Below are positions 17,541-62,220 of a stretch of DNA of 64,000 nt, piece after piece. Source of the DNA: Parelaphostrongylus tenuis (Eukaryota; Nematoda; Chromadorea; Rhabditida; Metastrongylidae); the NCBI GenBank assembly GCA_019055375.1, contig JAHQIW010006965.1, positions 248,001 through 312,000 on the forward strand. The letters are read 5' to 3'. Below the pieces are notes generated by a model. It saw only the letters and a program-made list of their open reading frames with translations. It made no database searches and had not been told where the DNA came from. Made by a program: the position numbers and the translations under genes. The number at the start of each line of letters is the position of its first letter. Position 1 is the stretch's first letter.

Positions 17541-17543
17541 TTT

Positions 17544-34600: not shown

Positions 34601-37575
34601 GATAGCTCAAACTCCACCATTTTGATGTTGTACGTCATTAACGGTAACGAACTTTTCAATTAGCTGGACTGTTGCTGAATAGCCATTGAGAAGGCTAGAC
34701 CTACTTATTGCTTAGGGTTAATATTTACCACAAATTCTCTACGAATCGCTTTTGGGAGGGCACTGCCGTCATAGGCTATGCAGCTGTTTAGTGGAATCAT
34801 CCTCACGTGGAGATAAATACGTGCTTCCTCATACCTAGGACGACCGGTATGGGTGAAATTTACATGCATCCTTCTCAACATTCTCAGATGGATATTTATA
34901 ACATCACACCACTACTAAAGATCAATAGAATAATGTTTACCTAGAGAGTAAAAGAATGAAGCTCTCGATGTTGATCAGTTTCTGGAGGATGGGCCATGCT
35001 GTATCAAGTCAGCAGCGCTATCCTCCCAGACAAGTCTGGTATCAATATACCCACCCAGGAGGGATGGTAGGCTTGGTGGGCCATGAGCGCCGGATCGAAC
35101 GATAGGCCACGTGTGCGGCACAGAGCACCTCTAACCACTAAGCCATGCACTCTATGTAAAAAATAATATTCAGTAGTCTGTAAGGTTTTTATTTTACTCT
35201 ATAAGTATCGCTTTTTGATCTAGGTTATGCATTTCAAATCAAGCAAATCCACAACAATGCAATTCAAAAAATCTGCGACAGTCGTGTGTCAGTGTCACTT
35301 CTGTTTCGCATAAATGTTGAGTGCCTTCGGCGATCTGCAGAAAAAGGGACTTATCTGTCTCTTATATATGCAAAAGTTTTCAACATAACTTCGCGTAACA
35401 CGATAGAAAAACTAGTTTCCCCTCTGTAGAGTTTTGTGGAAAATCCTGGATACCAAATCGATGATTTTGAAAATGAGAAGAAAAGCTTAGAAAACTAATC
35501 TTCATTTGAAGCTTCACGGAGGTTGGTACTTTTTTCCCCATCGAATCTTCTTCTTTCCGGTTGATGGGTTTTTCGCAGTTGCTTGTGGCTGACGTTTCGG
35601 CAAATACGCCTTCTTCAGAGCCTTACCATCTAATCCAGGAACTTTGAAAATTAGAAGAAAAGCTTAGAAAACTAATCTTTATTTGAAGCTTCACGAAGTC
35701 CCTGGATTAGATGGTAAGGCTCTGAAGAAGGCGTATTTGCCGAAACGTCAGCCACAAGCAACCGCGAAAACCCATCGACCGGAAAGAAGAACATTCGATG
35801 GGGAAAAAAATACCAACCTCGTGAAGCTTCAAATAAAGATTAGTTTTCTAAGCTTTTCTTCTCATTTTCAAAGTTTTATATTATTAACATGCTGAGGTTT
35901 CAAGAAAGTCGGTCTTTCGAATTGTTACAAAATCGATGAATGTCCGTGATATTTCTTGATCGTTATTGTTGATCACCCTTTTCATCAGCTATATCATCCA
36001 CACAACTACTGGTACTGGACCAGATAATTTTTGAAATCGCAGTGGACAGACAAGTGTGTCGAATTGGTTGTCGACAAATCCTCATATTCTGATTTGAACC
36101 CTACCTTATACAGGAAAGCGATATTTCATGGAAATAGAAATTTCCAAGAACAGCCATTTTGTAACGTCACAGTTATCGTATTAATTAATGATAAAGAGCG
36201 GAGTTCCGTAATAGTGATCATAAATGGATGCGCCATGTATTCGACTCCTTCTATCAATCAGTATAGAGGTAACCGAAACGTATTTTGCGAATGCAGTGAA
36301 CTTGAGGTGCATTACTGTTCCAGTAAGACAGCAGTTTCTACTCTCCACAGCAAGCTGCTGCCAGTTTGCTGATCCAAGTGAGGTGAAGCATCAGTGGCCC
36401 TTAAAGTGGTATCGAGCCATTTATCGGTAATGTGTATAATGCAGGCGCCTCCAATCATTGAGATGCACACTTTTCTTCATTAAAGATAATTTGATTAACT
36501 CTTAAACAGCCATAAGAGTCATTTGCTTCACACCGCGCGACGTGCAATCTCACTGAGGTACTGTAATGGCGGCGTCGCGTCTTGTGGGAAAGCGACGGCG
36601 TGACGCCGCCTGCCTATCAACGCTGATCCTCAAAGGGGTAACGAAAAGTTAACAAAGTTCTTTATAGATGTGCCCATTGCGTTATCAATTTCACTAGAAC
36701 GGCCAACAATTGGTGAAGCAAGAAAAGTGAAATGATAAAGGGTGATGACAGAACAGGAGCGTCGTTAGTGCAGTTGGTTTAGCAAGTATCTTTGAGAGGG
36801 TAAAATGGGGGTTCGATTCCCATTTGATGTTTAGAGTTTTGCGTTTTACTCGAGATTATTGGGCATATATTTGTAACATATAGCATCTCTAGAGCAATTG
36901 AATATGAAGAATTCTGTCATTTCTAAAACACCTTTCTATCCAAGCAGATTTGGTCATTTATTCGAAAAAAGATACTTATGTTGTACTGTATCGTTGTATC
37001 GTGAATTATATAGATATCCATTGATTTTAGCGGTTTCACCATCGAGTTTGGCGCTGCCTTGACCGCACTGGTCTGCAGTAAACTTGGACTACCGATCAGC
37101 ACAACACATTGTCTGGTAAATACCAAAAGCAAAAAACTTTTTCTTACAATAAGAATGCTTTCGGAAAGCATCGAGCTGCTTATAATTAAAACGTTCTCAA
37201 AACAATATGATATGAAAGCCTTCTCCATATCAGTGTGAAAGTACTCCTTTCAAGGTTGGATCAGTGGTTGCTGTTGGTCTTGTGAAATCACGTGAACAGA
37301 TTAAATGGTCCATATTTCGTAATATTGTAATTTCATGGTTTGGTCACTCTTCCAGTATCAGGGTTAGTAATTTTTTTATTAAGAAATGGACGAGGAAAAT
37401 GCGATCATAATACGACGAATCTGGGAAAAAGACTAAGCTTTACTAGTGGCGTCAAAAAAGAAAACAGATAATTTATTCGAGAACCAAGCTTTCCAGGAGT
37501 AATATAACATTAGAAATAGAAATTTCAGGTCTGATCTCAGCTGGGCTCATGCTCTTACTCAAATTGGCGTTGTAA
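22590..37575 (+). CDS. PiT/PHO4 family sodium-dependent phosphate transporter (gene 2, 15 exons)
   Basis: This is a Na+/phosphate symporter of the SLC20 family, expected in the plasma membrane with about 12 helices. The exon chain is 22590-22640, 22756-22942, 24238-24339, 26049-26189, 26363-26448, 26521-26617, 26675-26794, 26956-27036, 29250-29335, 31907-31956, 33260-33329, 33422-33537, 37031-37115, 37255-37342 and 37529-37575. All phases agree and give about 468 residues. Both PHO4 repeats are present: [16 protein letters not shown] near residue 43 with [14 protein letters not shown] near 128, and HGANDVSNAIAP near 328 with [13 protein letters not shown] near 417. The hydrophilic central loop (about residues 262-310) is short. 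The penultimate exon carries two extra G residues, so its end is ambiguous. Introns are loaded with mariner, SINE and ribozyme-bearing repeats. The start is the ATG after a consensus acceptor. Confidence 0.92.
22756..22942 (+). CDS. Gene 2 exon 2 (N-terminal PHO4 signature)
   Basis: It follows TTTTTTTCCAG and encodes [17 protein letters not shown], then [16 protein letters not shown] and a second helix ending [10 protein letters not shown]. Phase 1 out at GTGAGG. This is one of the two inverted PHO4 half-repeats. Confidence 0.95.
23430..23880. other. GC-rich block inside gene 2 intron 2
   Basis: This stretch is clearly richer in G+C than its surroundings and has open frames on both strands (23432-23632, 23693-23881 and 23674-23859), with phrases such as GACCGGGCAGGGCCGATCCG. 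I find no motif. It may be a retroelement fragment or inserted foreign-composition DNA. Confidence 0.4.
24238..24339 (+). CDS. Gene 2 exon 3
   Basis: It follows ATCTTCAG and encodes [18 protein letters not shown], then [15 protein letters not shown]. The donor is GTTGGT, phase 1 in and out. Confidence 0.85.
24671..25060 (+). pseudogene. Mariner transposase with internal deletion (N-terminal HTH joined to C-terminus)
   Basis: In a 129-codon frame, residues 57-84 ([19 protein letters not shown]) match the end of the mariner paired-like DNA-binding domain. Residues 88-129 ([20 protein letters not shown], then [15 protein letters not shown]) match the extreme C-terminus. The catalytic DDD core of about 200 residues is missing, yet the junction is in frame. 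An upstream piece in another frame ([10 protein letters not shown]) suggests an earlier frameshift. It lies in intron 3 of gene 2, same strand. Confidence 0.8.
25163..25485 (-). mobile_element. Hammerhead-ribozyme repeat unit, - strand
   Basis: A complete-looking unit of the about 318-bp family: ribozyme at 25206-25267, then the body (GTTAGGTGAAACATTCACCT, CACTCGATTGCTC, ATACCTTTATCTCGAGTGC) to GACCACGCTCAAAT. The core CTGATGA / GAAA is intact, but stem I lacks one base next to CTGATGA. It is joined to a + strand copy on its right. Confidence 0.8.
25206..25267 (-). ncRNA. Hammerhead ribozyme, type I (nearly intact)
   Basis: Read on the - strand: GGGTTC, GCCCG, CTGATGA, GTC-TGTAAG-GAC (stem II), GAAA, CACGTG (stem III), TC, then CGGGC and GAGCCC pairing back as stem I around an internal loop. 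One stem I base is missing compared with the copy at 43341. Confidence 0.75.
25496..25667 (+). mobile_element. Hammerhead-ribozyme repeat unit, + strand, 5' part
   Basis: The ribozyme at 25499-25560 is followed by ACCAGACCACATGACATG, TTGAAATTTGAGCGTG and CACTCGAGATAAAGGTAT. It breaks off after about 170 bp. The core reads GAAC instead of GAAAC (one A lost), so this copy should not cleave. Confidence 0.75.
26049..26189 (+). CDS. Gene 2 exon 4 (first STTH motif)
   Basis: It follows TTATTGCAG and encodes [19 protein letters not shown], then [15 protein letters not shown]. His is intact in this STTH. The donor is GTTGGT. Confidence 0.95.
26363..26448 (+). CDS. Gene 2 exon 5
   Basis: It follows TTACTTTCAG and encodes [18 protein letters not shown], then [10 protein letters not shown], a helix conserved in the family. 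Phase 1 in, 0 out. Confidence 0.93.
26521..26617 (+). CDS. Gene 2 exon 6
   Basis: It follows CCTTCTCAG and encodes [18 protein letters not shown], then [14 protein letters not shown]. The donor is GTCTGT, phase 1 out. Confidence 0.9.
26675..26794 (+). CDS. Gene 2 exon 7
   Basis: It follows TTTTTTACAG and encodes [19 protein letters not shown], then [18 protein letters not shown], entering the basic start of the cytoplasmic loop. Phase 1 out. Confidence 0.9.
26956..27036 (+). CDS. Gene 2 exon 8 (central loop)
   Basis: It follows TTTTCTAG and encodes [18 protein letters not shown], then ARNGKKDLG, before GTGAAG. The hydrophilic loop is poorly conserved, so support comes from phase 1 to phase 1 agreement with both neighbours. 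Confidence 0.7.
27466..27825 (-). mobile_element. Hammerhead-ribozyme repeat units, - strand, diverged
   Basis: The ribozyme at 27501-27563 has CTGACGA, stem II GGC-TGCAAG-GTC and GAAA. The body carries GTGCACTCGATGGCTC and a (TTTA)n run before CAAGACCACGCACGAATTTT. A short second start follows at 27790-27825 (AAGCCATGCACGTGGTTTGT), so this was a tandem of at least two. Confidence 0.7.
27830..28112 (+). mobile_element. Hammerhead-ribozyme repeat unit, + strand, diverged
   Basis: The body begins at the ACCAGCCAAGAGCAATCGAG segment and ends with a ribozyme near 27995-28055 (CTGACGA, GGC-TGTAAG-GCC, then TGAAAC with an extra T). The tail ACAGACCACATGCATTACTC matches other copies. The extra base before GAAA probably inactivates it. 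Confidence 0.65.
29250..29335 (+). CDS. Gene 2 exon 9
   Basis: It follows ATCGTTCAG and encodes [19 protein letters not shown], then TIKLFSTIQ, before GTAAAC. The end runs in frame into VFTACF of exon 10, as the family's FxxLQ-type junction does. A - strand frame over the same bases is a shadow. Confidence 0.82.
30380..30739 (+). mobile_element. Mariner-derived MITE, + orientation
   Basis: It has terminal repeats TTTGGGAAAAAATCTGAAAA and CTCAGAACTTTTTCCCCAA. Inside, [17 protein letters not shown] is the start of a mariner transposase, followed by decay. It shares CACAAAAAT-type and GATTGGTATATAATTTATC segments with the copy at 19.7 kb. It sits in intron 9 of gene 2. Confidence 0.8.
30765..31440 (-). 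pseudogene. Mariner transposase relic with inverted C-terminal ends
   Basis: On the - strand [12 protein letters not shown], then [12 protein letters not shown], then [13 protein letters not shown], then NNEFYERD, then [16 protein letters not shown] follow the order of a mariner catalytic C-terminal half (DNARPH, SPSDYHLF, RW-x-K-x2-ADG-x-YFE). Stops and shifts interrupt it. At 31320-31390 the + strand again reads [11 protein letters not shown], so the C-terminal end is present twice as inverted arms. Confidence 0.7.
31907..31956 (+). CDS. Gene 2 exon 10 (second PHO4 signature)
   Basis: It follows ACTATTGTAG and encodes [16 protein letters not shown]. The Asn-Asp pair is conserved. The donor is GTATGT, phase 2 out. 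Confidence 0.95.
32160..32670. repeat. Dispersed repeat of unknown type (intron 10)
   Basis: 32165-32350 matches 48895-49080 in the same orientation (TAGCACAGA, AACAATCATTCAAAAGC, AAAATTATGTTTTAC). 32370-32660 matches the reverse complement of 49150-49430 (GGAGCACGAAAAGCACAT, GTCCGTGAATTGGCC). A shorter relative is at 4500-4640. No coding motif was recognised. Confidence 0.55.
33260..33329 (+). CDS. Gene 2 exon 11
   Basis: It follows CTACTTTAG. The split Ser codon is completed, then [18 protein letters not shown] and RQEEE. This finishes the second GANDVSNA signature. Phase 0 out at GTGAAG. Confidence 0.9.
33422..33537 (+). CDS. Gene 2 exon 12
   Basis: It encodes [18 protein letters not shown], then [19 protein letters not shown]. 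The acceptor CAGTTAAG is weaker than the others, but length (116 nt) and phase match gene 1. Confidence 0.9.
34945..35154 (-). repeat. tRNA-derived SINE, family 1, - strand
   Basis: Complement of the family-1 SINE: GATCGAACGATAGG (B-box side) and AGAGCACCTCTAACCACTAA (A-box side), with CCTCCCAGACAAGTCTGGTA in the body. It is internally shortened and lies in intron 12 of gene 2. Confidence 0.8.
35463..35876. mobile_element. Fold-back element with hammerhead-like motifs in both arms
   Basis: The left arm (35463-35642) and right arm (35698-35876) are near-perfect reverse complements of about 180 bp. The 55-bp spacer repeats the first 50 bp of the left arm directly (AGAAGAAAAGCTTAGAAAAC). Each arm carries CTGAAGA, a GGC/GCC stem, GAAACGTC and an AGCC/GGCT pair. 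The RNA would form a very long hairpin. It lies in intron 12 of gene 2. Confidence 0.8.
35712..35764 (+). ncRNA. Hammerhead-like motif, second type
   Basis: GGT, AA, GGCT, CTGAAGA, A, GGC-GTATTT-GCC, GAAA, CGTC, AGCC, a 7-base loop, ACC. Stem I pairs AGCC/GGCT and ACC/GGT, and stem III would be the 4-bp palindrome ACGT. The extra A after CTGAAGA is a departure from the consensus, so activity is doubtful. An identical motif sits on the - strand near 35580-35632. Confidence 0.45.
36568..36610. repeat. GC-rich hairpin
   Basis: GGCGGCGTC (36568-36576) pairs with GACGCCGCC (36602-36610) across a 25-base loop, inside intron 12. It stands out against AT-rich surroundings. Confidence 0.5.
36757..36830 (+). 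repeat. tRNA-like SINE head, family 2
   Basis: A good A-box (TTAGTGCAGTTGG) and B-box (GGGGGTTCGATTCCC) are present, but the flanks do not pair as an acceptor stem. A decayed tRNA gene is the alternative. Confidence 0.55.
37031..37115 (+). CDS. Gene 2 exon 13 (second STTH motif)
   Basis: It follows TTGATTTTAG and encodes [19 protein letters not shown], then LPISTTHCL. It is 85 nt, as in gene 1, with His intact. Confidence 0.95.
37255..37342 (+). CDS. Gene 2 exon 14 (ambiguous 3' end)
   Basis: It encodes [18 protein letters not shown], then [11 protein letters not shown]. In gene 1 this exon continues with STLPASG. Here the following bases read VTLPVS only if one G is removed at 37342-37343, and the normal donor then has one G too many at 37361-37363. 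With the sequence as given, only a GT at 37343 (exon end 37342, phase 1) keeps the terminal exon in frame. Confidence 0.75.
37529..37575 (+). CDS. Gene 2 terminal exon
   Basis: It follows AATTTCAG and encodes [14 protein letters not shown], then TAA. It is 47 nt, as in gene 1. This is the final transmembrane helix. Confidence 0.85.
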
Positions 37576-39538: not shown

Positions 39539-39913
39539 TTGGGTAAAAGGTTTTTGAGAAAATGCTTGTAAAACGTTTATCTGTGCACCTATTACACCCA
39601 AACACGGGCAAATCTGATAGTCAAAGCACTTCTCAAATAGTCCAAGAACGTTTCAAACTTTCTTCTCCTTCGTCGAATTTATTGGACCACCTGTACACCA
39701 TACTTTTGCCAATTGTGTCTTTGCCCCAAGCCAGACTGATTCGTCCACTTGCCACCGTTGCATTTAAACCCAACAGCCATTCTTGAAATAAGTGGATAAC
39801 ATACATACCAATCAACACGGGAGAAGACGAGCTTTCAAGTGAGCCTAAAAACACAAAAAATTGCAGACACCCAAAAAATTACAAGCATTGTCTCAGAACT
39901 TTTTCCACAACCT
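39539..39913 (-). mobile_element. Mariner-derived MITE with HTH-domain fragment
   Basis: It has ends TTGGGTAAAAGGTTTTTGAG and CTCAGAACTTTTTCCACAAC. On the - strand the interior encodes EWLLGLNATVASGRISLAWG, then TIGKSMVYRWSNKFDEGEES, which is the mariner N-terminal DNA-binding region with the YRW-x-NKF signature. The catalytic core is absent. Confidence 0.82.
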
Positions 39914-40455
39914 GTGAAATATGGCATGCATAGTACATCCACGCTCTGACGAAGGAGAATTCGCCAAAACGTGGCCATTAAGTTTGAAGGGAGGAGTATC
40001 AGTCTCGTGCAAGCTTTATTTTAAGCTCAAAGAGTTGCAATTGTTGATAGTTTTTACTGCATCTAGTAGAAAACTAAAATGTAATAGAATAATAAAATCC
40101 CTAGAAACTAAAATGAGTTTATTAAAAGTTGGAAGCTGGAAATTGCAATCGTTTTGATATCGTTTTGACCCTTGCAAAGGCCATATCGTTGCATAGTTGT
40201 TATAGTACGGGTTAATTGAGACGAGCGAAAAACTCTTTGCGCTCAGCCTTTGAACTCAGAGCAATAATCTTGTTTTAGTAATATGCAGACATAAAATAAT
40301 TTTTGATCTGAATAACTGACAAGAATAAATAACTCACTGAAGGATGGCAGATGAGCTCTGATTGCGTCATCGATCCAACAACCGGCCGACTACATTCTTT
40401 GGAACACTTTAAAACAGTACCCTCATAGAGAGATTATTGAGCATCATCTACATAG

Positions 40456-40762
40456 GAGCGCATGTGACACAGTGGTCAGAGGTGCCTTGCCTTGCGTCTG
40501 GTCAATGGTTCGATCTTGCGCTCATGGCTCACCAAGTCATTCATCCCTCTGGGGTTTGTGAATTGGTATCAGACAAGTCTGAGTCTCAGACTTGCCTGGG
40601 AGGATGAACAGCACTGACCCGGTTCAGCGGTAGGCCAGCGCGAGTCATTATAAAGGTCAGATATGCATTCAGTTGCCTCATGCGAAGTCATAAATTGAGG
40701 ACGAATGCGTGGCGCAACCCTCAAGGAATGATCAAAGCAGAGAGCTTTTCCTTTTACTATTT
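40456..40762 (+). repeat. tRNA-derived SINE, family 1
   Basis: GAGCGCATGTGACACAGTGG with A-box, then GGTTCGATCTTGCGCTCATG (B-box), GTGAATTGGTATCAGAC, GCGCGAGTCATTATAAAGG and a pyrimidine-rich end. It is about 307 bp and full length. Confidence 0.85.
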
Positions 40763-40881
40763 TGTGCAAAATTGTATATTTTCGATACTCAGCATATTCC
40801 TGTTAGGCGGAAATTTTTCGTAAAATCATGTTGTTCTCCATTTATAACTAACAAGCTTCCTAATCAAGTTTGTTTTTCGGG

Positions 40882-41070: not shown

Positions 41071-43080
41071 ATGCTAGCGGTACCTGGTCCGCACACAAAA
41101 AAAAATGTGGTGACCAATCGTATAAATAAGTAGTAAAGCAGATCAGTTTTATCTCTGACCACCACCGAATCCACAGTCACGACGTGAAATAAACTAAGCC
41201 GGTATTTGTTCAAAAAAAAAGTATTTTTAATAGGATGACGCGGCCCTTCAGTCTAATATTAATGTCGCTCTCACGATAGTAATCACATTCTTCAGCGAAA
41301 TGGTGACACACTTATCAGAAAGGGTAAAACTCTCACGTGACTGTTGGCTTATTGATCCTTGCAATTCACTGTCCAGAGCAGATAGAATTGCATTCTACAC
41401 ACGACCATGAACCGGCATGCGAATGCTGTTTCGACCTCTAAACCAAGCCGGCAAAGCTTTTTTTACTCTTTAGGGCTGCAAACTGTTAGCAAAATCGTCT
41501 CTGTAGAACAAAGTAGCCAATAGCTGTGTATCTTCTTGTCTTGGTTAATCATATGACTTGGTTTCGCATATTACTCGAATCACTGTACTTTTTTGCATGC
41601 TTCGTTGTCGTCCATGATCATTTACGGATATCTTTAGAGTTATGATCAGCTCGACTACCATTTGAGGTTTCCTTTTCCTGAAGGTGGGAAGGTAATTGGA
41701 CTTTGATCTTATTTCTTCCGTGAATTATTTGATAGGTACTACCGGATTTTTTCATGTTTTCATCACAGAGAAAGTCACCGGCATTTGTATATTGAAGAGC
41801 TTGTTTCAGATCGGTCTGATATCCGTTTACTGAAACTGAAGATCGGGATGGCTTGAGACATTGTCGGGTCATATAACCACGCGAGCAACGGAAGGCACTT
41901 CCAATCACTACACTTCCCGTGTCCTCGAAGGCAGTGGACAGATTTAGTTAATTAAATACTTATAATGATTCCTTTGAAGGCGAGTTCTAGCTGTCCTTGA
42001 GTCGATCTTCATGAAGTTATTCGTTACAAGTCTACATCCTTCCTTACTTTTGTTATTATCTGTTTCAAAGATAATTGAATCTTCATAAAAACGTCCAGAG
42101 GCGAATATTCGACTTCAGTTTACAATTTTTGTCATTCATTCAATGATTGATCAACAGCTGATGGTTCGTCGTGTCGACTCGTTCCTTCTTTTTCTGAACA
42201 TGACATTGAGGAAAGTGATGAACTATCGAGTGTTAATTTCTTCTATTACGATGAAACCAGTTCCTCTCTCAGTTCAATCCGAGGAATTCATATAGAGACT
42301 TTCTGAATTCCAAATTGGAGATGCAACTAGAAATCATGAAACCTAGTATGTGACACAGAAAGATCAGAGATTTTTTTGTTAAAAAGTGTTTGTTGTTAGT
42401 TCCGCTCAATCATTCATTGTATTACAAAATCTTGAATATTATTCAAATTTTTCTTCGGTTAAAAGTGCTTTTTGAAACCTTTCACGTCAGTCTGACACTC
42501 GAGAACAATAAGGTGCGTTTGAGAAATCACTATTTTTTAACGGACGAAATTCCATTCATCCAATTATCTCTTTATCGTTCGAGCAATACGTACTGCCGAC
42601 AAAAGAAACTGGGAAACTAAAGCACTAGATAAAGAGCCACAAAAAAAAAGAATTTTCATTGCGTAAGGATTTCAGAAATTACCCTCATATTCGGTAATTA
42701 CTATCAAGTGTTTGTTCTTTGAAAAATTTCCTCTGGAAGAATCATTGGACGGCTCTTTTAGAGCCTTTTTTCCAAAGATAGTCGCCAACACCTGGGAATC
42801 GGCTTATTATAATGATATCGACATCGATCTCTAAAATAAGAATTATTCCAATCATGAAAGCTCCTTAATATCTGAGATTGCTTGACCCTTTCACAGCTGT
42901 GTGTACAGTTATGTGTACGTATGAAAGCTTGGATTGGTTTTCAAAAGCACTTGTGTTGAGTCCATTAAAACCTCACAGATCTAAAAAAGGCGAGATCTGA
43001 GAAATCAGTTTGAAGCGTCGAAGCTGATAACTGACCAATAAATCAATGTTGATTTTGATGCCAACATCAGCCGCACTGTG
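41071..43080. other. Intergenic, no gene recognised
   Basis: A - strand frame at 41618-41908 (96 codons) is polar and Gln/Ser-rich (QTDLKQALQYTNAGDFLC). I cannot assign it. Nothing else is structured. Confidence 0.45.
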
Positions 43081-43449
43081 ATCCTTTACCAGACCACATG
43101 ACATGTTGGTTCAAATAATAATGAAAGGATCTATTGAAATTTGAGCGTGGTCTTAATAAAGCACTCGAAGAAAGGTATATTATGATAAAATACCAGCCAG
43201 CTAGCAATCGAGTGCGAAAACAGTCTGTGTTAGGTGAATGTTTCACCTGACAAAGAGCGTAAAGCGTAGGTCGTCGATAACTATATATAAGGAGCGTGAC
43301 GCTCCCGAGAGAACTGACTATGAAAAGATCGACAGACGACGGGTTCTGCCCGGCTGATGAGTCTGTAAGGACGAAACACGTGTCTCGGGCTGTACAAGAG
43401 CCTTTACCAGACCACATGACATGTTGGCTCAAATAATAATGAAAGGATC
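43081..43449 (+). mobile_element. Hammerhead-ribozyme repeat, partial tandem (318-bp period)
   Basis: CCTTTACCAGACCACATGAC occurs at 43083 and 43401, exactly 318 bp apart, and each is followed by TCAAATAATAATGAAAGGAT. Between them is one full body (TTTGAGCGTGGTCTTAATAA, GTTAGGTGAATGTTTCACCT, TCGTCGATAACTATATATAA) and one intact ribozyme (43341-43403). The unit length and head-to-tail layout are those of retrozymes and Penelope-type terminal repeats. Confidence 0.85.
43341..43403 (+). ncRNA. Hammerhead ribozyme, type I, intact
   Basis: CTGATGA is at 43354-43360. Stem II is GTC/GAC (43361-43363 with 43370-43372) closed by TGTAAG. GAAA is at 43373-43376. The palindromic stem III CACGTG (43377-43382) is followed by U43383 and C43384. 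Stem I pairs 43385-43390 (TCGGGC) with 43348-43353 (GCCCGG) and, past a 7-against-1 internal loop, GAGCCT with GGGTTC. The predicted cleavage is between 43384 and 43385. The very short stem III suggests cleavage mainly as a dimer, as reported for Penelope-type hammerheads. Confidence 0.88.
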
Positions 43450-43872
43450 ATGTAAAAGGGTTAAAAATAAATGGGCCGATTATACTACTTCCGACTGCAT
43501 ATAAGTTTGAATAAACTTGTATTTGCTATTGTGTTTCGAACCAAACGGCAGATAATCAATTTCTTATAATAAAGCTATTTCATCTAGCTTCTTAGAAAGC
43601 TTTGCCGTTACGAAAGCGATGGAACGCAGAGAGTGCAGTGATAGAGATGGCGCTTAATTGCTTGCTCAAAGCTCTAATCCGAATACCCCTCTGGATAACT
43701 GAGTTTACCATATCATTAGGACTGAAAAGATAATAGCATATTGGCCTCGAAAAGCTCCTTCTGTCTCACAAAAGTGGTGCCCGAGGATTGCGAAGGTCTT
43801 GAAACGTTCTGGCATAGCCATCTTGCGATCTTAGTGGGAAGCAACCAGCGATGGAAGGATCGAAAACATAAT

Positions 43873-44170
43873 TATTAGCTGAGCCAACATGTCATGTGTT
43901 CTGTTAATGGCCTCTTGTACAGCCCCATACACGCTTCAGACCTTACAGTCTCGTCAGTCGGGCAGGACTCGTCGTCTTTTAGCCAATCCTGTGTGGGTGC
44001 TCCAGTCCCCACACTAAGAGGTAGCGTCGACGAACGATTTACACTGTACGTCAAGTGAGAACATCACCGAGCATACAGTGTTGTACACTCGATTGCTCTT
44101 TGGCTGGTATTTGTGTAATATTATACCTTTGTTTCGAGTGTTTTATTGAGACCACGCTCCACAATATGTC
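43873..44170 (-). mobile_element. Hammerhead-ribozyme repeat unit, - strand, inactive ribozyme
   Basis: The unit is recognisable from GAGCCAACATGTCATGTG to GAGACCACGCTC. The ribozyme (43910-43970) keeps CTGACGA and GAC-TGTAAG-GTC, but GAAA is altered (TGAAG). Confidence 0.75.
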
Positions 44171-44925
44171 CCATAATTACTATTTAGCATATCAAAATAG
44201 AATAAAAACTAAATAAAAAAAATTAAAAAATAAAAAAGTAGTAACGAAAACGTTTATAAATAGGGAAAATCTTGAGTGTTTCCCTGATTTATATAAGAAT
44301 TCGTTGACGTTCGTGGGTGACTGATGTCGGTGACGACACCTTGGAAAAGTAGTTAATCTCAGCACGGTATGAGATGTCGTGCCGGAGGAAACAATTGTTA
44401 GGAAAGATAGTAATGCTTTTCTATAGGTAAAACTTGATGCTTTCTCGACGAAGCTGGTTTTCAGCGATTGGGCTTAGTCTTCGAGCAATAAAGTATAATT
44501 GAAAGTTCACATTCTCATGATTTTATAGGAAAGTCTTCGATCTTCTGCAACAATCACATAATTAGAATCCAAACTTAGCAATTTGAGATTGAATTTTTTT
44601 GAATTCTGAATTCTCAGCATAAAAGCTCCAACTTCAAACGAAATCATGCATTAGGAAACACCATCGCACTGACCATCAGTCTTCTTTCTTGCTCGAATTT
44701 CGAGTTCTGAAGCAAAAAATAGGAATTTCCTACGACTCCACTAAAATCTGTGATTTGTCGTGTTTATTCGCTGGAAATTTTCTATGAGCTAGGATGAGTT
44801 GAATTGAAGTTGAGAGTTCCAATTATTTCCGCGAAGAGATCCATAGATACCTCTTTGTCGCGACACTGTTATGGATTGTATCTCATAATTATTATTTGAG
44901 TCAACATGCCACGTGATGTGGTAAT

Positions 44926-44988
44926 GGGCTCTTGTACATCCCGATACACGTGTTTCGACTTTATAGTCTCGTCAGTCGGGTAGAACCA
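44926..44988 (-). ncRNA. Hammerhead ribozyme, type I, core intact
   Basis: CTGACGA, stem II GAC-TATAAA-GTC, GAAA, CACGTG, TA, then TCGGGA against ACCCGA (five pairs in stem I). The stem II centre pair is A-U here and U-A in the copy at 43341, a compensating change. Confidence 0.8.
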
Positions 44989-45188
44989 GGCGTGGTCTTA
45001 TTAAAACACTCGAAATAAAGGTATAATATTATAAAAATACCAGCCAAAAAGCATTAGAATCTACAACACTGTATGTTCAGTGACACTCTCACCTGACTAA
45101 CAGTGTAAATCGTTCGTCGCCGCTTACGTCTTTGTAGGGGGAGTAGCGATTCCCAAGAGGAGTGGCTAAACACTAGAATACGCAGGAA

Positions 45189-45249
45189 TCTTCCCGACTG
45201 ACGAGACTGTAAGGTCGAAATACGTGTATCGAGCTGTACAAGAGCCCAT
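45189..45249 (+). ncRNA. Hammerhead ribozyme, core intact, weak stem I
   Basis: CTGACGA at 45198-45204, GAC-TGTAAG-GTC, GAAA, TACGTG, TA. Stem I TCGAGC against TTCCCGA has mismatches, so folding is doubtful. Confidence 0.65.
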
Positions 45250-45345
45250 TACCAGACCACATGACCTTTGGCTCAAATAATAATTATGCGATATATTGAA
45301 ATTTGAGCGTGGTCTTAATCACTCGAAATAAAGGTATAATGTTAT

Positions 45346-48300
45346 GGATTGCACCTGTTGAGCTCGCCTCGATTCACATGGTACTTTTCAATTAACCGAC
45401 ACCTCATTGATCGTTTCTCGACTTTTTTTTGTTTGTTCTGATTTTAGAATTATTACAACCTTCTCTACTGTTCTGCCATTAAAACAATCAATACGCGAAA
45501 TGGTGTACTTCCTTTTCAAGCAAGTTTTTTTCTTTTGAGAACATCGACAAAGTACAGCAGTTGATTACGCCCTACTTATTTTTGTTCCTTTAATTTGCTG
45601 TCGTTACCGTTGACGTTTTTGTGATTCTTTTCAATGTGACAACTGAACAGGTCTCACTACTAAAGCGCATTCCCACCTTAAACATTGCTGGTCGCTTCAA
45701 CAAACTCACTTCCTAGAACAGTTCTTTACACAATTTTTTTTTGTCATTTTTGATAGCAACTTATTACAGAGTTTTCACGCGCTGATTAGCTGTTTGAAAA
45801 GAATTTAGCTAGAAGTCTATTCTCTTACTTGTCCTTCTTTCTTCTTCTTTGCTTCCATACTGATCTTTTCTGGAGTCAACCTTCTATTTACTGCCTGCGT
45901 AATATGCCGAAATGCAGACTACTTTGTGAAATATGACCGCAAGAGTACTTAGCTGCGAACAAAGCTTGCAATTTTGTATGCATAATAAAAAGGGCTCAAA
46001 CCCCGGCAGACCATTATAAGGCAGCGCGTATTCGCACTGCGCCATTCATGTCCTTGCTATGCTTTCCTCTCGGTCGAGGTTTAAGTTTTTCGCTGGCAAT
46101 GAACAACCACTCGTCAAAGGGAATGGACCTACGGAGAAGTCTGCAGTGTACTCGCTTGTGCTGAAGCCTCTTCTAGTGTATTTCATTCAAATACCGATGA
46201 AACTTAACATTAATCCACATTAATTCACGAAAGTTGGGTCTTAAGAAAATTCATTTGCTGTGATCTTTTCTCTTTTCTTGAGTTTCTCAGCGTACATCTG
46301 CGATCTACCGGTCCTCTTGAAGTTACCTGCTTTTTAACGGACTTTGCGCAATAATTGTAACATCAATCTTCACTTTTCTTGAAAGGATTACTCTGTTGAT
46401 GATTTTCCTTCGCGAAAGCAGCTTGATGACTGATCTTTGCATCTTTTTATTCGTTTACTTTACACTTAAGATCGTAGTCTTTGGTACCGAACAAAAGTAG
46501 GCAGCAATGTTTCATTGTCTTGTCATGCAAATAACGCACCATAGAGCAACCGAATCTTGTCTCACGACAGCTGACGATAGTTTCTTGATCACTGAGAAAG
46601 GAGTATACAAGAGTCTGTAAGCCTAATATATTGGGTTCAGGTACTCAAACGTCCTTCTAAAAATAGATTCGGCGAGAGTTTGTATGTTTAATATAATGGT
46701 GTAGGTGCCTAACCACCTCCAGACGATGGAGGCCACTCTGGCCCTCAACTTTAGAGATCTATTTTCGCTTAACAAAGCTTTTCATCTACGATGTTAACAT
46801 TCATATAGGAGCACAATTTCAATATTTTGTTTGTTTTCTATTAAGGCTTCATACTACGCGTAAAAGCGAGAATAGTATTATGTATCACACTCAATTTGAT
46901 TTCTTTGGTTTGTTAGGGTCTAAGGATCTTTTTTTTTTCGTGTAGAGAAATTCATGTTTCATCAGAGTATTAAAAAACCAGAGGTTTCCTTCGAAATAAA
47001 AAGAAAGAATGTCTTCTAAATAGCGCAAATTGCAGTATCGATCATGTTGTCGTCCGGAAAGGGTTAAACACATTCCAGTCATCCCATGAACTCTCGAATG
47101 TTCTTGGACCGTCTACGCTCTTCTACAGTGGAATGCTCTTGGACAGTCTATGGAGTCCTTCGACGTAGCTTCCCTTTGCACAAAGTGGTCAAAGACTCTG
47201 CTAAGCAAGCCATTTGCGAGGTTCTCACGGAAGACGGAAAAGCTATAAAAATGTGTGGTATTTCGACTCCGTAGGTCATTGGAGTATTGAACAGTTGTCA
47301 TAGTGGCTCAATCTTTAGATTGTTTGGGAGCACATTAACTGAGAGCGTTGTGAATACGACAGTGACTAACCCCACTTTGCTCTTGCCTATGTGCCTAAGG
47401 CGAAAAATCTCAGTAATGGATCTCTGCCCATTACTCTCCTGTCGATATATATAGATATTTGTTTTGTCATCTGCTTTATAACAGATAGAAATAAACAATC
47501 GTTTTGACTTGTTGATGAGACACAGAGTACACATAAGTCACAAGTAGGCAAGCTAAAAAAAACTGTATTCAGTTTCTGAATCTACAAATCGCATCCGAAA
47601 ACGACTGCATCACCAAATGAAATGGCACCAAAAAACAACTAGCAAAAGCATGCTGATTCAATACTTCTCCTTCCAATGTCGCATAAAAGAACAGTGTATG
47701 TGAAAACATGTTCCGAACAGCCCTCAATGTGTGAATAGGAAGAAGGCTTGAGGAGGAATCCTCGAACGTGACGTGGAAAATAGTTATTTCTAATAGCTAC
47801 AAATGGTGTGAGCCTTTTGGCTCATATTTAGAAAGAAAAAGCAGCTTTTACAGATGCTGATCTCAGCGAAATAGTACTCCTTTCCTTTATTTTCAGCAAA
47901 GTAAGCGCAACTATAAAGTGAAGAGCAAATCTGAATAGCTGGCAGCAGTGATGAAAAATCGCCGAGCACTTGGAATCCCTAGCTAATCGAAACCGATTAC
48001 ACGACCGTCTACCAAAATCAAAAGTTACATAACTGGCGCAATGATAGAAACGATGATTGCGTGAGTTTGGGAACAATTCGCGAGTTCTTGTAAAACTTGC
48101 AAGAAGAATACTTTGGTGAAATGAGTAAACCACTTTGCCTCTGCGTAGAAGTGCACTTGATTGGAAAACTTGCAGCCTAGTAAAAACATTCCACCAGTCA
48201 CGTGTAGGCTATAAAAATATAACAAAAACGATTTTGCTGTAAACGTCACTATCCTTTCATGAGTATCTGAAATATCGGTGCAAAAAATCCTCAAAGCAAT

Positions 48301-50009
48301 CGTCATGGAATCCAGAACATCGAATTTGGACCGCAAGAACTAATATTTCGTGATCACACGCGACACTACCTAGCGCCTAATACTTTAAGCTGATTTTTCC
48401 TCAGATGAGTCAGGCAAGGGCTTGATCCATGAACGACTCTGTGCAGCTGCTCCTCAATAGACTTGTTCCTTTTGTTATCTCAAAAAGAACAAAACGGTGA
48501 AAGATAAAAAGAAGGTGCCAAGCTTGAGATCTGGATTTTTTAAGAATCAAGTTTTTCTGCTGACGTCATAAATGTGTTTGACTGAGTAGATTGCACGTCA
48601 TTTTGACCCTCGCGGCCTTAAAGAAGGAGATATTGTCTAAATGTCAGTTGCTATTGTTTTTAACACGCGATGATATTCTTAACTTCGTATCTGCATATCC
48701 AGAAAGCAATGAATGTGCGGAGCCAAGAATAACTTTCATTCTTTTCCTGTTGTGCAATTGTCTTCCAATGTGGTGGTCTGCTCCGATCACGGTGACGTAC
48801 ACAAGATCTTTTTAAAATGGTGAACTTGTTGCCATTTGAGGACGAAAACTGTTCATGTTAGACCCACTCACTGTGCGTCCATCGTTATGTGGCTGTCGGG
48901 AACTTTTCCGTTTGGTAGCACAGACTTTAAGCCTATTCTCTACTCTCGGCAAGAAGTTTTCATTGAGAGTGTTGGTAATCATTCGAAAGCCTGAATGAAA
49001 GCTAGAGCTGCAAGCAGCCGGCTTTTTCAATTAGCCTTTTGTAACGTTGAAAATTCAAAGTAAAATTATGTTTTACGCGCACATATTTTTTGCATTATAG
49101 AGCCCTTTTTTGGACTGTTAGTAATCGCTCGACAGCGTAAAGTAAACCGATTCCAACGTTGTGCTTATATCCCGGAGAGATAGTTTCTCTACAACGTAGC
49201 GCGGAAAACAAGATTGATTCTCATGCGTGAGCAAGTGTTCTTTGGCCGATTCACGGACGGTGGGATGGAAGGCAGGGACGAGTCGGAGGGATATCAATCG
49301 ATAGCGCCTAAATCAAGTGTATCTGACTAAAAATTGTTTTTCCGGTCTGGAATAGACTTTAGATTAAACGTTTAACTCTGCTAGTAGAAGAGTTTCTCTA
49401 CACGTTCATGTGCTTTTCGTGCTTCCAGCGAAATGATGAGTGAGTTGCGCGGCTAATGTGAAACATACTTTTGTTTTTGATTTTGCGTCAAGAAAGGCTA
49501 TTTTTGAAAAATCTGATTGAGCACAGCACTAGCTCGAAATTCAATGATTACTTTATGAAATATGTATTTTTGTTCATAATCTGGTATTGATGCTTTTGAC
49601 GATTGTTTTTTCGCTTTTTTTCCGAAACCATGGATGAGATTTTCAAGCTTGTGAAAAATGTTTAAGAACACATCAAGTAACTTTTGATGAACCTTTGATC
49701 TATTGCGGTTATGTGTTGTTATTCTCTTTGTGCAAATTAAGGCTAATGTCTGAAGTAGTGTTCAATTGAACTTCAGGCTATTAGATATTGTTATGATGAA
49801 ATCCTAATCTGAGAATGTCACTCGTTCAGAGAGATCTGCTCCTTTTCTCGAAAACTAACGTTTGTAAGTCTTTACAATATTTAACTTTTTCACATTGCTG
49901 CTCTATCGTATATCTCGTTGGAAGAGGGACGAAAAAAATAACACGATCAACAGTAAGATTCTACTCATTTCCCCACACTAATTGTTTCGTCACTCATATC
50001 TCATAATTG
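45346..50009. other. Intergenic, no gene recognised
   Basis: Short frames only. 47086-47170 contains two copies of a 35-bp phrase (ATGTTCTTGGACCGTCTA / ATGCTCTTGGACAGTCTA). 46610-46710 has two loosely similar segments. 48895-49430 is the partner of the intron 10 repeat. Confidence 0.5.
48895..49430. repeat. Dispersed repeat of unknown type (copy 2)
   Basis: The left half is direct and the right half inverted relative to 32160-32670, so one copy has been rearranged or both are composites. Shared words include AAAATTATGTTTTAC and, inverted, CACGAAAAGCACATGAACG. Confidence 0.55.
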
Positions 50010-50432
50010 CTATTTGAATTTGCTATTTGAACCAACTCGTCCTGTAGTCTGTTGAATGGGCTCTTGTACAGCCCGATACACGTGTTCGGACCTTACAGTC
50101 TCGTCAGCAGGGCAGAACCCCCTGTCTTTTAGCCAATCATCTGAGGACGCTCTAGTCCCCACACTAAGAGTTAACGACGACGAACGATTTACACTGCAGT
50201 GCTGTCGAAGGAAAATCACTGTAACGGCAGTTTCGTACACTCAGTTGCTCTTGGCTGGTATTTTGAAATATATCATACCGTTATTTCCGAGCACTGTTCC
50301 AAGATTTCTTAAGACCATGCTAAAATTTCAACAAGTTTCATATCTTATAACTGCTATCTGATATTCGATATGTTGAAATTTGAGCGTGGTGTGAAGAAAC
50401 ACTCGAAAATAACGCTATAATATATGTTCCGT
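50010..50432. mobile_element. Hammerhead-ribozyme repeat, - strand unit plus + fragment
   Basis: A - strand unit (ribozyme 50058-50120, GAAA core lost: rc reads GGTCCGAACACG) is followed at 50365 by a + strand fragment starting TGTTGAAATTTGAGCGTGG. It has the same inverted layout as at 25 and 45 kb. Confidence 0.75.
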
Positions 50433-50562
50433 CACTGCTCTCCCATTTATAGCAGAAAACTTAAAGCTTCAGCTCGGTAAATGTGATCTCTATGGATTGA
50501 ATCCACGAAAAATCATAGCACACTCAATGATGCAGAGTGATATGTAAAACTTTCGCGTCAGG

Positions 50563-50631
50563 CGGGACTCGAACCCACATCTCACTCTATCCGGGAGCGC
50601 GTGCTCTAGCCCGTTGCACTACTGGCGCCCA
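50563..50631 (-). repeat. tRNA-like SINE head, family 2
   Basis: On the - strand, A-box-like GTAGTGCAACGGGCTAGAGC and B-box GTGGGTTCGAGTCCC are well preserved. The ends do not pair well enough to call a tRNA gene. Confidence 0.55.
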
Positions 50632-51344
50632 TTTTGTCTACCACTCTTTCTACGCTACAACGCATCTATCTGAGTTAGAAGAAGAGTTCTATCATAGCAC
50701 ACTATTTATCTATTGAGCAGTTTGAGTAGTTTCTTCAAATGCTGTATTTCGAGAGTCCATCTAATATACTGACGTGTTCATTCTCTATAACATTTTGTCA
50801 TCCTCGTTAAGCACTACTGTCATCGAAATTACATGCCACGTCTATGATCACGGCAACATGAAATCAAACTTGTTCTCTTATCATGGATGTTTTTCGGTTG
50901 TCTATGTTTTCAGATGAACTCGTTTACGCTGGCTGGAAAAAGTTTTGTGGCTTTTAGTAGTCATTTGATTTCTTTTTTTCAATAATATGAGCAGGTTCTC
51001 AAGCAGCTCAAGGACGTTCTTTTCCAATTTTTCAAAAATTTATTGGTAAGAGAATTTTGATAAGGTGCTAACTGAACAAGATAAAAGGTGTTGTCCAGTC
51101 AATATCGACTGCATTCTATCCGCTGTATTTTCTTTTGCAAGATACAATCAGTCGATCAGTCTATCCTGCCCCTAGGTAATTTGATGGCTTTTTTTTGCCT
51201 ACTACTGCCATGCAGCGGTGCAAACATCATTCCGATTCTCACAAAGCAATGTACTATCTCTACATTATCTTTTGCCAGCCACTCGATTGTCAGAAAGAGA
51301 TTATCGACTACTTGCTAGAATTTATGATGCTCCAAACATCACAA

Positions 51345-51808
51345 CGAGTGCTATTTTACCTTTATTTCGAGTGTGTTCTCGAGACTACGCTCGAGTTTCA
51401 ACATATCTCTTGATATTATCTGACCCAACATGTCATGTGGTCTGTTAATGGGCTCTTGTACAGCCCGATACACGTATTTCGACCTTACAGTCTCGTCAGT
51501 CGGGCAGAACCCTTCATGTTTTAGTGTTTAGCCAATCCTCTCGAGAATCGCCACTCTCCCTATAAAGAGGTAAGTGACGACGAACGATTTACACTGTATA
51601 TTGAGCGAAATTACCATTGAATATATCATATTTCTACACTCGATTGCTCTTTGACCGATATTTTTGTAATATTATACCTTCATTTTTAGTGTGTTTTTAA
51701 GACCACGCTCAAATTTCAACATATCTCATAATATTGGCTAAGCCAACATGTTCATGTGGTCTGTTAATGGGCTCTTGTACAGCCCGATACACGTGTTTCG
51801 ACCTGGTA
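51345..51808 (-). mobile_element. Hammerhead-ribozyme repeat, partial tandem on the - strand (319-bp period)
   Basis: GGGCTCTTGTACAGCCCGAT begins at 51450 and again at 51769, 319 bp apart. The first ribozyme (51450-51512) is intact; the second stops inside stem II at 51808, where unrelated sequence begins. The tail of a preceding unit (CTTTATTTCGAGTGTGTTCT, 51355-51420) shows a third partial unit. Confidence 0.85.
51450..51512 (-). ncRNA. Hammerhead ribozyme, type I, intact
   Basis: On the - strand: GCCCGA, CTGACGA, GAC-TGTAAG-GTC, GAAA, TACGTG, TA, TCGGGC. Stem I has six perfect pairs. Predicted cleavage is between 51469 and 51468. Compared with 43341, stem II has a swapped middle pair and stem I gains a U-A for a U-G. 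Confidence 0.85.
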
Positions 51809-52914
51809 TTACTATTTCAATAGCCTCAGAAATTTTAGTAAATAGTCGATAATCTTTTTCTGACAACCGAGTGCCAGGCAACAGATAACTTAGCGATAGT
51901 GCATTGCGTTGTGAGAGTCGGAATGATAAACGACAGCTGCACATCAGGAACAACAGCATCGAAATTCTTCAAAAAATCCTCCTCAAAAAGTGATTGATGA
52001 TCTTTTGAGAGTATAACAGATGAAGAGCTTGCCTGGAGTCCTTCACCAAGATCACTCTAAAGTTGATGTGATAAACATGAATTAGAAAAATAATGAAAAC
52101 ATGAATGTGGCTGCACATTTGATTCTCAGCTCTTGCACTCTCTCTGCCACGTGGGTTTAGGTCACAAGCATAGAGCACTAATATTTCACTTACTCATTCT
52201 CTTCTCTTCTTCCTCATCTTTTTCTCCTTTCCTTTTACGTATTTTTTTTCGTCCCCCGACGTTAGACTTTTTACGATGACAGCTGATAAGAAGAAAGATA
52301 GAAGTCCGCAGCGACCATTGATGGCCGAAATTGAAAGGCTTTTCTCTATGAATTTGGAGCGTACTCGTTGTTTTTCACAGCAATCTCTGAGCTCAGCACA
52401 AAAAATCCATGGAATTTTTTGATAAAGCGTATTCTTGTGCAAGCACTGCAATTGTATATCCTATCGCTTCTACTGTAAGCTGAGTTGTAAATAAGTAAAA
52501 TTGTTGGATTACACTTTGATGATTTTTTCTATAAATTATATAGAACCCTATTCAATGTTAAGATGATCCCAAATACAGATTTTTTGTTTGTTGATTGAGC
52601 CCGGTGTAGAAGCGTTATTAAGAATTTTTTACGCGGACTCGTTCGACGCCTCTCGTTTCCTTTAAAGCTGATGGTTCGAGTTGATCGCTCTCGTTGCAAC
52701 ACTTTCCCTTCGTCTGGCTCGAATCAAACCTTCTCCCAGCAAAGCAGCGGTCGAATGAGGGACCTTCTCGCCCGGCTTTTTATATACAATCTAATTTTAG
52801 AATTCTACATAAATCTCTTTTCCCATGACAATGCACGTTAACTGACTTCAGGCACAAGGTGACATCTCGAAATTATAATTCAGTAAGCTAGAATTTTGTT
52901 GCCTTCATGGACTG
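51809..52914. other. Intergenic, no gene recognised
   Basis: Only short frames and pyrimidine-rich stretches (52190-52250). Confidence 0.5.
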
Positions 52915-54325: not shown

Positions 54326-54390
54326 CGAATTTTTGCTTAACTCGATTCTCTCAGATATCATTTGCTTCTGATCTTGCTAATGATGATAGA

Positions 54391-54686
54391 AAGGATAAAG
54401 CTCTCAGCGTCGATCAATTTTCAAGGAATACGCCATGCATTCGTCTTTTATTTTTAACTTCGTTTGAGGTGATTGAATGCATATCTGACACCTTTACAAT
54501 GACTCGCGGTGGTCTCCCGCTGACCGAGTCAGTGCTGCTTATCCTCCCAAACAAGTCTGAGACCAGTGTGGTACCAATTTACCGACCCCGAAGGAATGGA
54601 TGGCTTGGTGAGCCATGAGCGCGGGATCGAACTATCGACCTCGTGTGCGACGCGGAGCACCTCTAACTACTACGCCACATGCGCTC
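54391..54686 (-). repeat. tRNA-derived SINE, family 1, - strand, full length
   Basis: It runs from GGATAAAGCTCTCAGCGTCG to CCTCTAACTACTACGCCACA then TGCGCTC. It carries the complement of both promoter boxes and the GGTACCAATTTACCGACCC body segment. Confidence 0.85.
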
Positions 54687-54712
54687 TTAAAAAAAAAGGT
54701 TGTAATATCAAT

Positions 54713-60559: not shown

Positions 60560-60850
60560 CTGAAAAGGCACTTATACAGCTGACCAACTAGTGTTTCGCC
60601 CTTCCAAGCTCCTCAGTGGGGCGGTTCCTTTTGGTTTCGCTGATCCCTTAGAGATATACTCCTACATATAAAGGAATCGACGTCGAGTAACAAATCACCG
60701 CAAATCAGGTGACAAAATCCCCCGACATTGCAGTGACCACAGTCAAGTGCTTGTGGCTGCTCGACTGCATATTCAAACGTCATACTCTCGACTGTATATT
60801 TAAACGTCGCTCAAAGTAATGATAATCTGATACCGCTCGGTACTCATACC
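60560..60850 (-). mobile_element. Diverged relative of the hammerhead-ribozyme repeat
   Basis: On the - strand, CTGAGGA, GCT-TGGAAG-GGC, GAAA, CACTAG and TT keep the hammerhead order, and downstream words (ATCAGGTGAC, AAATATACAGTCGAG) sit where the main family has similar ones. Stem I pairing is poor. It appears to be an older subfamily. Confidence 0.5.
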
Positions 60851-62185: not shown

Positions 62186-62220
62186 TTCTGCTATCGACTG
62201 CTGAGCAGTCGATAGCAGAA
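62186..62220. repeat. Perfect 17-bp palindrome
   Basis: TTCTGCTATCGACTGCT, one central G, then its exact reverse complement. No repeat family or gene is attached to it here. Confidence 0.9.

Follow-up and report, generated by a model that had tools for sequence, protein, structure and literature searches.

The window analyzed here is a whole stretch of 64,000 nucleotides from the nematode Parelaphostrongylus tenuis (GenBank assembly GCA_019055375.1, contig JAHQIW010006965.1, positions 248,001 to 312,000 of the forward strand), and plain coordinates below are positions in that stretch. Near 43 kb it carries a copy of a small element, F1, whose unit contains a hammerhead ribozyme. On its sequence features, F1 fits a metazoan-type retrozyme of the class without long terminal repeats (non-LTR), in a nematode. 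The ends of its copies resemble those of Penelope-like elements (PLEs) in the same genome. Positions in the unit are numbered from the first base 3′ of the predicted ribozyme cut, and sites A and B are the two places where F1 copies usually end. The copy at 43 kb has the following parts.

43080 to 43449, plus strand: F1 retrozyme copy, 1.16 units of 318 bp, with its 5′ end at unit +14 and its 3′ end at unit +65 (site A)
43080 to 43131, plus strand: terminal 52-nt direct repeat, first copy
43398 to 43449, plus strand: terminal 52-nt direct repeat, second copy, 318 bp further
43341 to 43402, plus strand: type I hammerhead with a two-part stem I (Rfam core at 43348 to 43390, outer stem I assigned by eye)

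An Rfam cmscan of the 64-kb window matched Hammerhead_1 (RF00163) at 43348 to 43390 on the plus strand, scoring 34.9 bits where the gathering score is 34 (E = 5.5e-5), and this was the sole hammerhead in the window to exceed a gathering score. Under permissive settings the type III hammerhead model returned two older F1 copies at 26.3 and 21.2 bits, far under its gathering score of 48.5. The initial annotation of this DNA had proposed a type I hammerhead at this place, cleaving between 43384 and 43385, and had suggested an Infernal search with Rfam models; the match and the predicted cut, between 43384 and 43385, agree with it. The proposed 318-bp period is likewise exact, as the two 52-nt terminal repeats (96% identity) lie 318 bp apart from start to start. 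The description of the locus as a partial head-to-tail tandem holds for the 1.16 units present; two complete units, each with a ribozyme, are absent at 43 kb, where the copy holds a single ribozyme.

Stem II of this hammerhead pairs GUCU with GGAC around a GUAA loop. The F1 copy at 45 kb has GACU-GUAA-GGUC in place of GUCU-GUAA-GGAC, a change on both sides that keeps the pairing. Stem III is the palindrome ACACGUGU, without a real loop, and the F1 ribozyme may therefore work best as a dimer, by analogy with amphibian retrozyme hammerheads, which act as dimers according to the accessible text of PMC7229834. Plain RNA folding failed to recover the hammerhead (z was -1.06 for 43341 to 43404, 0.59 for the copy at 45 kb, and 0.02 for a third piece), which we consider normal for a motif that tertiary contacts hold together. 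As a circle, the F1 unit (318 nt, GC content 0.44) folds at -87.8 kcal/mol versus -70.7 kcal/mol in 100 dinucleotide shuffles (z = -3.4). For the 284-nt unit of a second family, F2 (GC content 0.444), z is -3.67. The palindromic stem III measures 8 nt in F1 and 12 nt in F2 by eye. No LTR-like repeat apart from the partial unit was seen in F1, and no open frame of at least 150 amino acids is present in the 64-kb window; an antisense frame of 126 amino acids crosses the F1 unit. By eye, a TATA-like TATATATAAGG lies at unit +216 to +226 (window 43282 to 43292) and could be a promoter.

BLASTN of the F1 unit against the window found seven more F1 loci, including a weak one, and in addition some short, isolated matches. 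The initial annotation had the unit and the ribozyme right and missed this dispersed family and its head-to-head copies. The seven loci and an F2 copy are as follows.

25152 to 25661, minus strand: F1 head-to-head copy, including target duplications TATTATAATA (25152 to 25161 and 25652 to 25661), with ends at sites A and B
27440 to 28113, minus strand: old F1 copy in palindromic, head-to-head form; self-identity about 67%, both ends placed near A and B by eye, and a search for target duplications gave none
43867 to 44185, minus strand: old single-orientation F1 copy with a damaged ribozyme core, ends near site A
44867 to 45351, plus strand: F1 head-to-head copy with 12-bp target duplications TGTTATGGATTG (44867 to 44878 and 45340 to 45351), ends A (left) and B (right)
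49983 to 50436, minus strand: F1 head-to-head copy with 12-bp target duplications TGTTYCGTCACT, one mismatch (49983 to 49994 and 50425 to 50436), ends A and B; missed by automatic end calling
51352 to 51810, minus strand: about 1.4 F1 units with their end at site B, enclosed in a larger element whose inverted repeats form arms at 51226 to 51331 and 51822 to 51927
60528 to 60790, minus strand: weak, diverged F1 relative with a hammerhead-like core at 60616
61930 to 62232, minus strand: F2 copy with 11-bp repeats TATATAAAGTC (61930 to 61940 and 62222 to 62232) taken as a target duplication by eye, without a control

The arms around the 51-kb copy are 85% identical, and the retrozyme seemingly sits near the center of a foldback or terminal-inverted-repeat element.

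Both families were followed through the 481.5-Mb assembly, where only part of the first-look candidates was scored, so that counts are lower bounds. The F1 unit gave at least 114 matches from 40 of 2,059 candidates; the full-length ones are 93 to 100% identical (100% being the window itself). Every non-window contig among the scored F1 matches entered a set of 38 young loci, with units mostly 95 to 99% identical. The hammerhead core is intact in 65 of the 69 F1 hammerhead copies in this set, and 36 of the 38 loci have at least one intact core. Head-to-head pieces occur in 24 of these loci, the other 14 being single-orientation. Runs of about three 318-bp units are found at C3628 and C4877. A search with RF00163 gave at least 31 matches, 20 of them over the cut-off (74 of 119,811 candidates scored), and each of the 30 loci cut out from it (L001 to L030) has an F2 match. 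The F2 unit itself gave at least 120 matches from 40 of 1,733 candidates, in runs of up to six full units (C1695). Judged by match coordinates only, the array at C1695:23815-26941 consists of six full units plus a partial unit that face a block of four units in the opposite orientation.

Metazoan non-LTR retrozymes (Cervera and de la Peña 2020, PMC7229834; review, PMC7761336) are described in the portions available as units of about 150 to 450 bp with GC content below 50% that carry a type I hammerhead, occur as multimers, and have target duplications of more than 4 bp. F1 is like them in unit size, GC content, hammerhead type, tandem copies, and duplication length, and its predicted circular fold is stable; the proposal of a retrozyme-like element in a nematode was thus a good fit. 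F1 is unlike them in that its young copies are for the most part short insertions that lie dispersed, with head-to-head pieces in 24 of 38, and its two-site end structure is not described for metazoan retrozymes in the accessible parts of PMC7229834 and PMC7761336. Plant LTR retrozymes, as presented in parts of PMC7761336 and PMC7229834, have type III hammerheads, LTRs of about 350 bp, a primer-binding site and a polypurine tract, and 4-bp target duplications. They resemble F1 as small nonautonomous elements with a hammerhead in direct repeats, whereas F1 has a type I hammerhead above the gathering score and target duplications mostly of 9 to 17 bp. The schistosome Sm-alpha/W-element satellites and newt satellite 2 are tandem units of about 330 bp with a type I hammerhead. 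Likened to F1 by description only, they belong to other hosts and are satellites, not short dispersed insertions. The string "nematod" is absent from the main text of PMC7229834, PMC7761336, and a 2011 hammerhead survey (PMC3088659), and no report of nematode retrozymes or of PLE-type retrozyme ends was found in a search of open-access PMC papers by title, abstract, and word counts, supplements excluded. As far as the open literature shows, F1 and F2 extend retrozymes to nematodes, and the anatomy of their ends is new evidence on what mobilizes them.

Copies of F1 end mostly at site A, about +65 (+59 to +72), or at site B, about +113 (+104 to +133). Among 56 ends corresponding to the RNA 3′ side in the 38 young loci, 48 fall at +55 to +75 (28 ends) or +100 to +128 (20 ends). 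These windows, 16% of the F1 unit, were drawn after the ends had been seen. Five of the other eight ends are in multi-piece or cut loci (+41, +133, +219, and twice +273); the rest are at +80, +217, and +78 (L079). When the ends are taken in pairs, 22 of the 24 young head-to-head loci have one A end and one B end: 12 were assigned directly, 7 with neighboring sequence, 2 by a finer search (L093 and L099), and L075 with further sequence. Single-orientation young loci end at A or B in 13 of 14 cases, and copies of 2.6 to 3.3 units (L074, L078, and L086) end at the usual sites. Within the window, the 25-, 45-, and 50-kb copies follow the A/B rule, as does the 27-kb copy by eye. In F2, 18 of 19 distinct head-to-head loci have one lower (+18 to +58) and one upper (+74 to +100) end.

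The flanks of these copies carry short direct repeats. Target duplications of 9 to 17 bp were found at 21 of the 22 A/B head-to-head F1 loci. Twelve of 17 head-to-head candidates, the same 12 that were assigned A and B ends directly, scored at least 10, versus none of 272 mismatched flank pairs. The mismatched-flank null does not extend to nine further A/B loci or to L075: seven of the nine have exact repeats of 9 to 15 bp and C88 has 14 bp with one mismatch, while the 17-bp duplication of L075, with one mismatch, was picked out of several spans that were tried. C371 and C4633 are possibly a single insertion that the assembly holds twice. Single-orientation F1 rows scored at least 9 in 10 of 17 cases versus 2.6% of 272 mismatched pairs, and a set of F1 and F2 loci did so in 11 of 23 cases versus 0.8% of 506. 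In the window, three of eight tested copies have repeats of 10 to 12 bp (chance 0.0007, 0.003, and 0.01 in 1,500 random placements), with boundaries set by hand after candidate repeats had been seen by eye. The initial annotation had allowed that the unit might prove to be an internal piece of some unrelated transposon; this is contradicted by copies that have ends and target duplications of their own.

These ends bear on two processes that would leave the PLEs out. One is a DNA-level process, such as satellite expansion, foldback, or rolling-circle DNA transposition, with the ribozyme as a passenger; many copies are indeed palindromic, like foldback elements. The palindromes, however, end at different unit positions on each side (A and B), have variable inner junctions, and are flanked by short direct target repeats, and A and B are also where the copies of 2.6 to 3.3 units stop. 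We regard such a process as barely credible. The other is copying by a retrotransposon of the long interspersed nuclear element (LINE) type, through target-primed reverse transcription with twin priming. Twin priming in LINE-1 also gives inversions and target duplications of similar length, and the inversions and duplication lengths of F1 are compatible with it. It places the second start at varying internal positions, however, and leaves a fixed 3′ end or A-tail, whereas in F1 both outer ends are fixed in 22 of 24 loci, near PLE distances. A LINE-type carrier therefore seems very improbable.

PLEs are resident in this genome. A search for the GIY-YIG nuclease domain (PF01541) gave at least 150 matches, all over the cut-off (150 of 1,723 candidates scored). 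Eight regions (L061 to L068) and 30 shorter loci were taken as the PLE sample. All three open frames tested (893, 893, and 902 amino acids) contain both RVT_1 and GIY-YIG. For one of these proteins, the best match among its relatives is 73% identical over 86%, and the best one that carries a species name, from Necator americanus, is 59% identical over 99%; the species named among the relatives listed are all nematodes, mostly strongylids (Necator, Ancylostoma, and Haemonchus), which by itself points to a nematode genome, probably strongylid. The minimal hammerhead core CTGAAGAAGGCGAACTGCCGAAACGTC is present in all eight regions. L062 and L063 are head-to-head PLEs whose two arms are more than 99% identical, an identity that suggests recent PLE activity. 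The window itself holds a palindrome with PLE-type cores.

35466 to 35872, no strand assigned: palindrome whose two arms each hold a minimal hammerhead core of the PLE type (35722 to 35749, plus; 35591 to 35618, minus)

The palindrome is 407 bp long with 91% self-identity. The PLE core is slightly changed in both arms, and the sequence is probably a relic of a PLE.

Of 36 distinct PLE hammerheads, one continues into its open reading frame (ORF), leaving 35 ends. Nineteen of these lie at +55 to +70 and 12 at +101 to +114, so that 31 of 35 are near the F1 distances. In five of six head-to-head copies, the PLE has one A end and one B end, and these five A/B loci have exact repeats of 9 to 13 bp, with a null of 30 pairs reaching 7 at most. 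F1 thus seems to be copied by PLEs, because both leave the same double-ended scar at the insertion. We consider it very probable, on this comparison of sequences, that the F1 retrozyme is carried in trans by the PLE machinery of the same genome.

The similar end sites, target duplications, and head-to-head form could also arise if the units were solo pseudo-long terminal repeats (pLTRs) or internal-deletion derivatives of a resident PLE, and PLE pLTRs too hold a hammerhead; the direct repeats of L061 are 320 bp long. The ribozymes differ, however: F1 has a type I hammerhead with a longer palindromic stem III, versus the minimal core CTGAAGA...GAAACGTC of the local PLE hammerhead. Nor do F1 and F2 match the PLE pLTR with which they were compared, and their own bodies differ from each other. 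Judged on the eight PLE regions and 30 shorter loci, descent of the units from a PLE appears improbable. A reverse transcriptase (RT)/GIY-YIG ORF is not in F1, whose 318-bp unit is too short for one and whose window has no 150-amino-acid frame; the PLE ORFs are separate loci.

Work on PLEs elsewhere offers parallels for carriage in trans. PLEs have been proposed as the carrier of metazoan retrozymes in PMC7229834, the accessible text of which points to type I hammerheads, tandem occurrence, and the same genomes. According to parts of PMC11167929, the Anolis PLE protein PAc uses two internal sites for priming and elongates both target strands; cDNA starts 111 to 118 nt into the ORF, the hammerhead cut is at +26, and the two sites bound a "tail." Our own arithmetic from those portions places the Anolis starts 85 to 92 nt and, with a tail of 30 to 40 nt, about 50 to 60 nt from the cut, versus +65 and +113 here. 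Rotifer PLEs, as far as the available sections of PMC3846280 describe them, have head-to-head pLTRs and a tail on one end, and the cases seen show target duplications that measure 8, 9, and 10 bp. Insertions without a duplication also occur, and one rotifer PLE moved a foreign gene in trans. F1 is like Penelope/Poseidon PLEs in its partial tandems, head-to-head inverted ends, target duplications (about 8 to 13 bp), one-end tail, and two internal RT start sites 3′ of the cut, which for F1 are deduced from copy ends. It differs from them in lacking an RT ORF, in showing no match to the one PLE pLTR with which it was compared, and in its fuller type I hammerhead with a palindromic stem III.

Sites A and B each fall within a predicted hairpin of the unit.

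43091 to 43153 (unit +25 to +87), plus strand: hairpin A, predicted fold, with site A (about +59 to +72) in the loop
43161 to 43215 (unit +95 to +149), plus strand: hairpin B, predicted fold, with site B (about +104 to +133) in the loop region

The predicted stem of hairpin A is AGACC...GCTCAAA / TTTGAGC...GGTCT. That of hairpin B is CACTCGA...TCGAGTG in F1 and CAGTCGA...TCGACTG in F2, and the second stem in the PLE, CAGTCGG...CCGACTG, resembles the F2 stem by eye. Hairpin pairing within families is 80 to 90% versus no more than 48% in slid controls; the count was made for each family separately, the combined F1 and F2 alignment being unusable for counting.

The arms of the copies bear on the template. 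Forty-one of 51 F1 arms are longer than one unit, which implies a multimeric or circular template. Their 5′ ends gather at +14 to +66, between the ribozyme foot and site A (27 of 51 versus 17% expected, in a window drawn after seeing the data). A linear template made by the ribozyme and a circular template halted at hairpin A or the ribozyme foot fit this cluster equally well. Among 12 complete loci, L092 alone has inner junctions at which its two arms meet within 10 nt of the same unit position; as this is so rare, two separate cDNAs fit better. A common inner junction at unit 270, seen in the 25- and 45-kb copies, was dropped as a rule, since the young loci do not follow it.

On the arrangement of ends, we favor, with some reservation, a mechanism in which the PLE RT-nuclease primes on both cut target strands, at site A on one and at site B on the other. 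F1 loci would be transcribed, and the ribozyme, perhaps as a dimer given its palindromic stem III, would trim the RNA to units or leave multimers or circles. The PLE protein (RT plus GIY-YIG nuclease), perhaps also a dimer, would hold both hairpins of one RNA; here we infer from Anolis PAc, predicted to be a dimer in the accessible part of PMC11167929, that a protein dimer may hold a single RNA. The target would be cut with a stagger of about 12 nt and cDNA primed from both strands, with loop A as one start and loop B as the other. Both cDNAs would run backwards, usually beyond one full unit, and then join head to head. A single successful cDNA would leave a single-orientation partial tandem such as 43080 to 43449.

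A different origin of the head-to-head copies is compatible with PLEs as the carrier and concerns a detail of the mechanism: snap-back self-priming on an antisense template. The authors of the rotifer study infer self-priming from palindromes at inverted junctions and call for experiments, in the portion available of PMC3846280. Snap-back predicts, however, that the arms meet at the same unit position, which the inner junctions contradict in all complete loci except L092. In addition, one arm begins at A and the other at B, and in vitro both target strands are elongated by the Anolis protein, according to parts of PMC11167929. We therefore think self-priming unlikely.

Several observations weigh against carriage by PLEs with two-site priming. 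No BLAST match was found between F1 or F2 and the one PLE pLTR compared, at E values up to 5; with no shared sequence, recognition would have to rest on RNA shape. Two predicted hairpins are possible around the two sites of the local PLE RNA, with a fold less clean than in the retrozymes, and two-sided changes in the hairpins are about as frequent in slid controls. The usual F2 end sites, about +45 and +94, lie some 20 nt closer to the cut than those of F1 and the PLEs, and one F2 locus breaks the rule (L002, 42/56). Four PLE ends fall outside A and B (+17, +33, +41, and +49), and the PLE L042 is a misfit with ends at +109 and +17. In F1, L082 and L100 do not fit: their inverted pieces measure 29 and 43 bp and stop at +80 and +217, and neither has a target duplication. 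The single-orientation copy L079 ends at +78, and the B window was widened to include the +133 end of L099. C4633 has merely a 6-bp repeat and the repeat of C661 is a low-complexity TA run. No target duplication was found in five of the eight window copies tested, and no clear one at the 43-kb copy.

Two-site priming by the PLE protein can be generalized. We give about even chances to the proposal that animal retrozymes are RNA mimics of a Penelope priming module, that is, of a cut site, hairpin A, and hairpin B at set distances, with one dimeric PLE protein engaging both hairpins and starting one strand per loop. If it is true, two-sided, two-site priming would explain the inverted pLTRs with a one-sided tail in both kinds of element, PLEs and retrozymes, and this type of target-primed reverse transcription would differ from what LINEs and LTR elements do. 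The A/B ends offer a simple explanation for inverted, one-tailed PLE insertions. As to what moves animal retrozymes, PLEs have so far been put forward as a proposal, as the available text of PMC7229834 has it, and the ends of F1, F2, and PLEs bear on this question. The A/B ends, the A/B pairing rule, and the duplications are common to two retrozyme families and PLEs, which opens the carrier proposal to a direct test with short RNAs and a single purified protein.

Other features of the window include a phosphate transporter gene, two exons of which match Pfam PHO4 above its cut-off, at 22735 to 23010 and 37014 to 37235 on the plus strand; the 25- and 27-kb retrozyme copies lie between them, perhaps in introns. 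A tRNA-like match of 41.9 bits is located at 50554 to 50628 on the minus strand, close to the 50-kb retrozyme copy. A dispersed repeat family of about 300 bp has copies 74 to 83% identical at 17541 to 17846, 40453 to 40764, 54383 to 54697, and 61368 to 61675 (and 35027 to 35166). Another dispersed family, partly self-inverted, has some frames that we take by eye to be mariner-like, with no Pfam match for the one frame tested (24659 to 25057); it is present at 19693 to 20073, 30370 to 30569, and 39781 to 39913.
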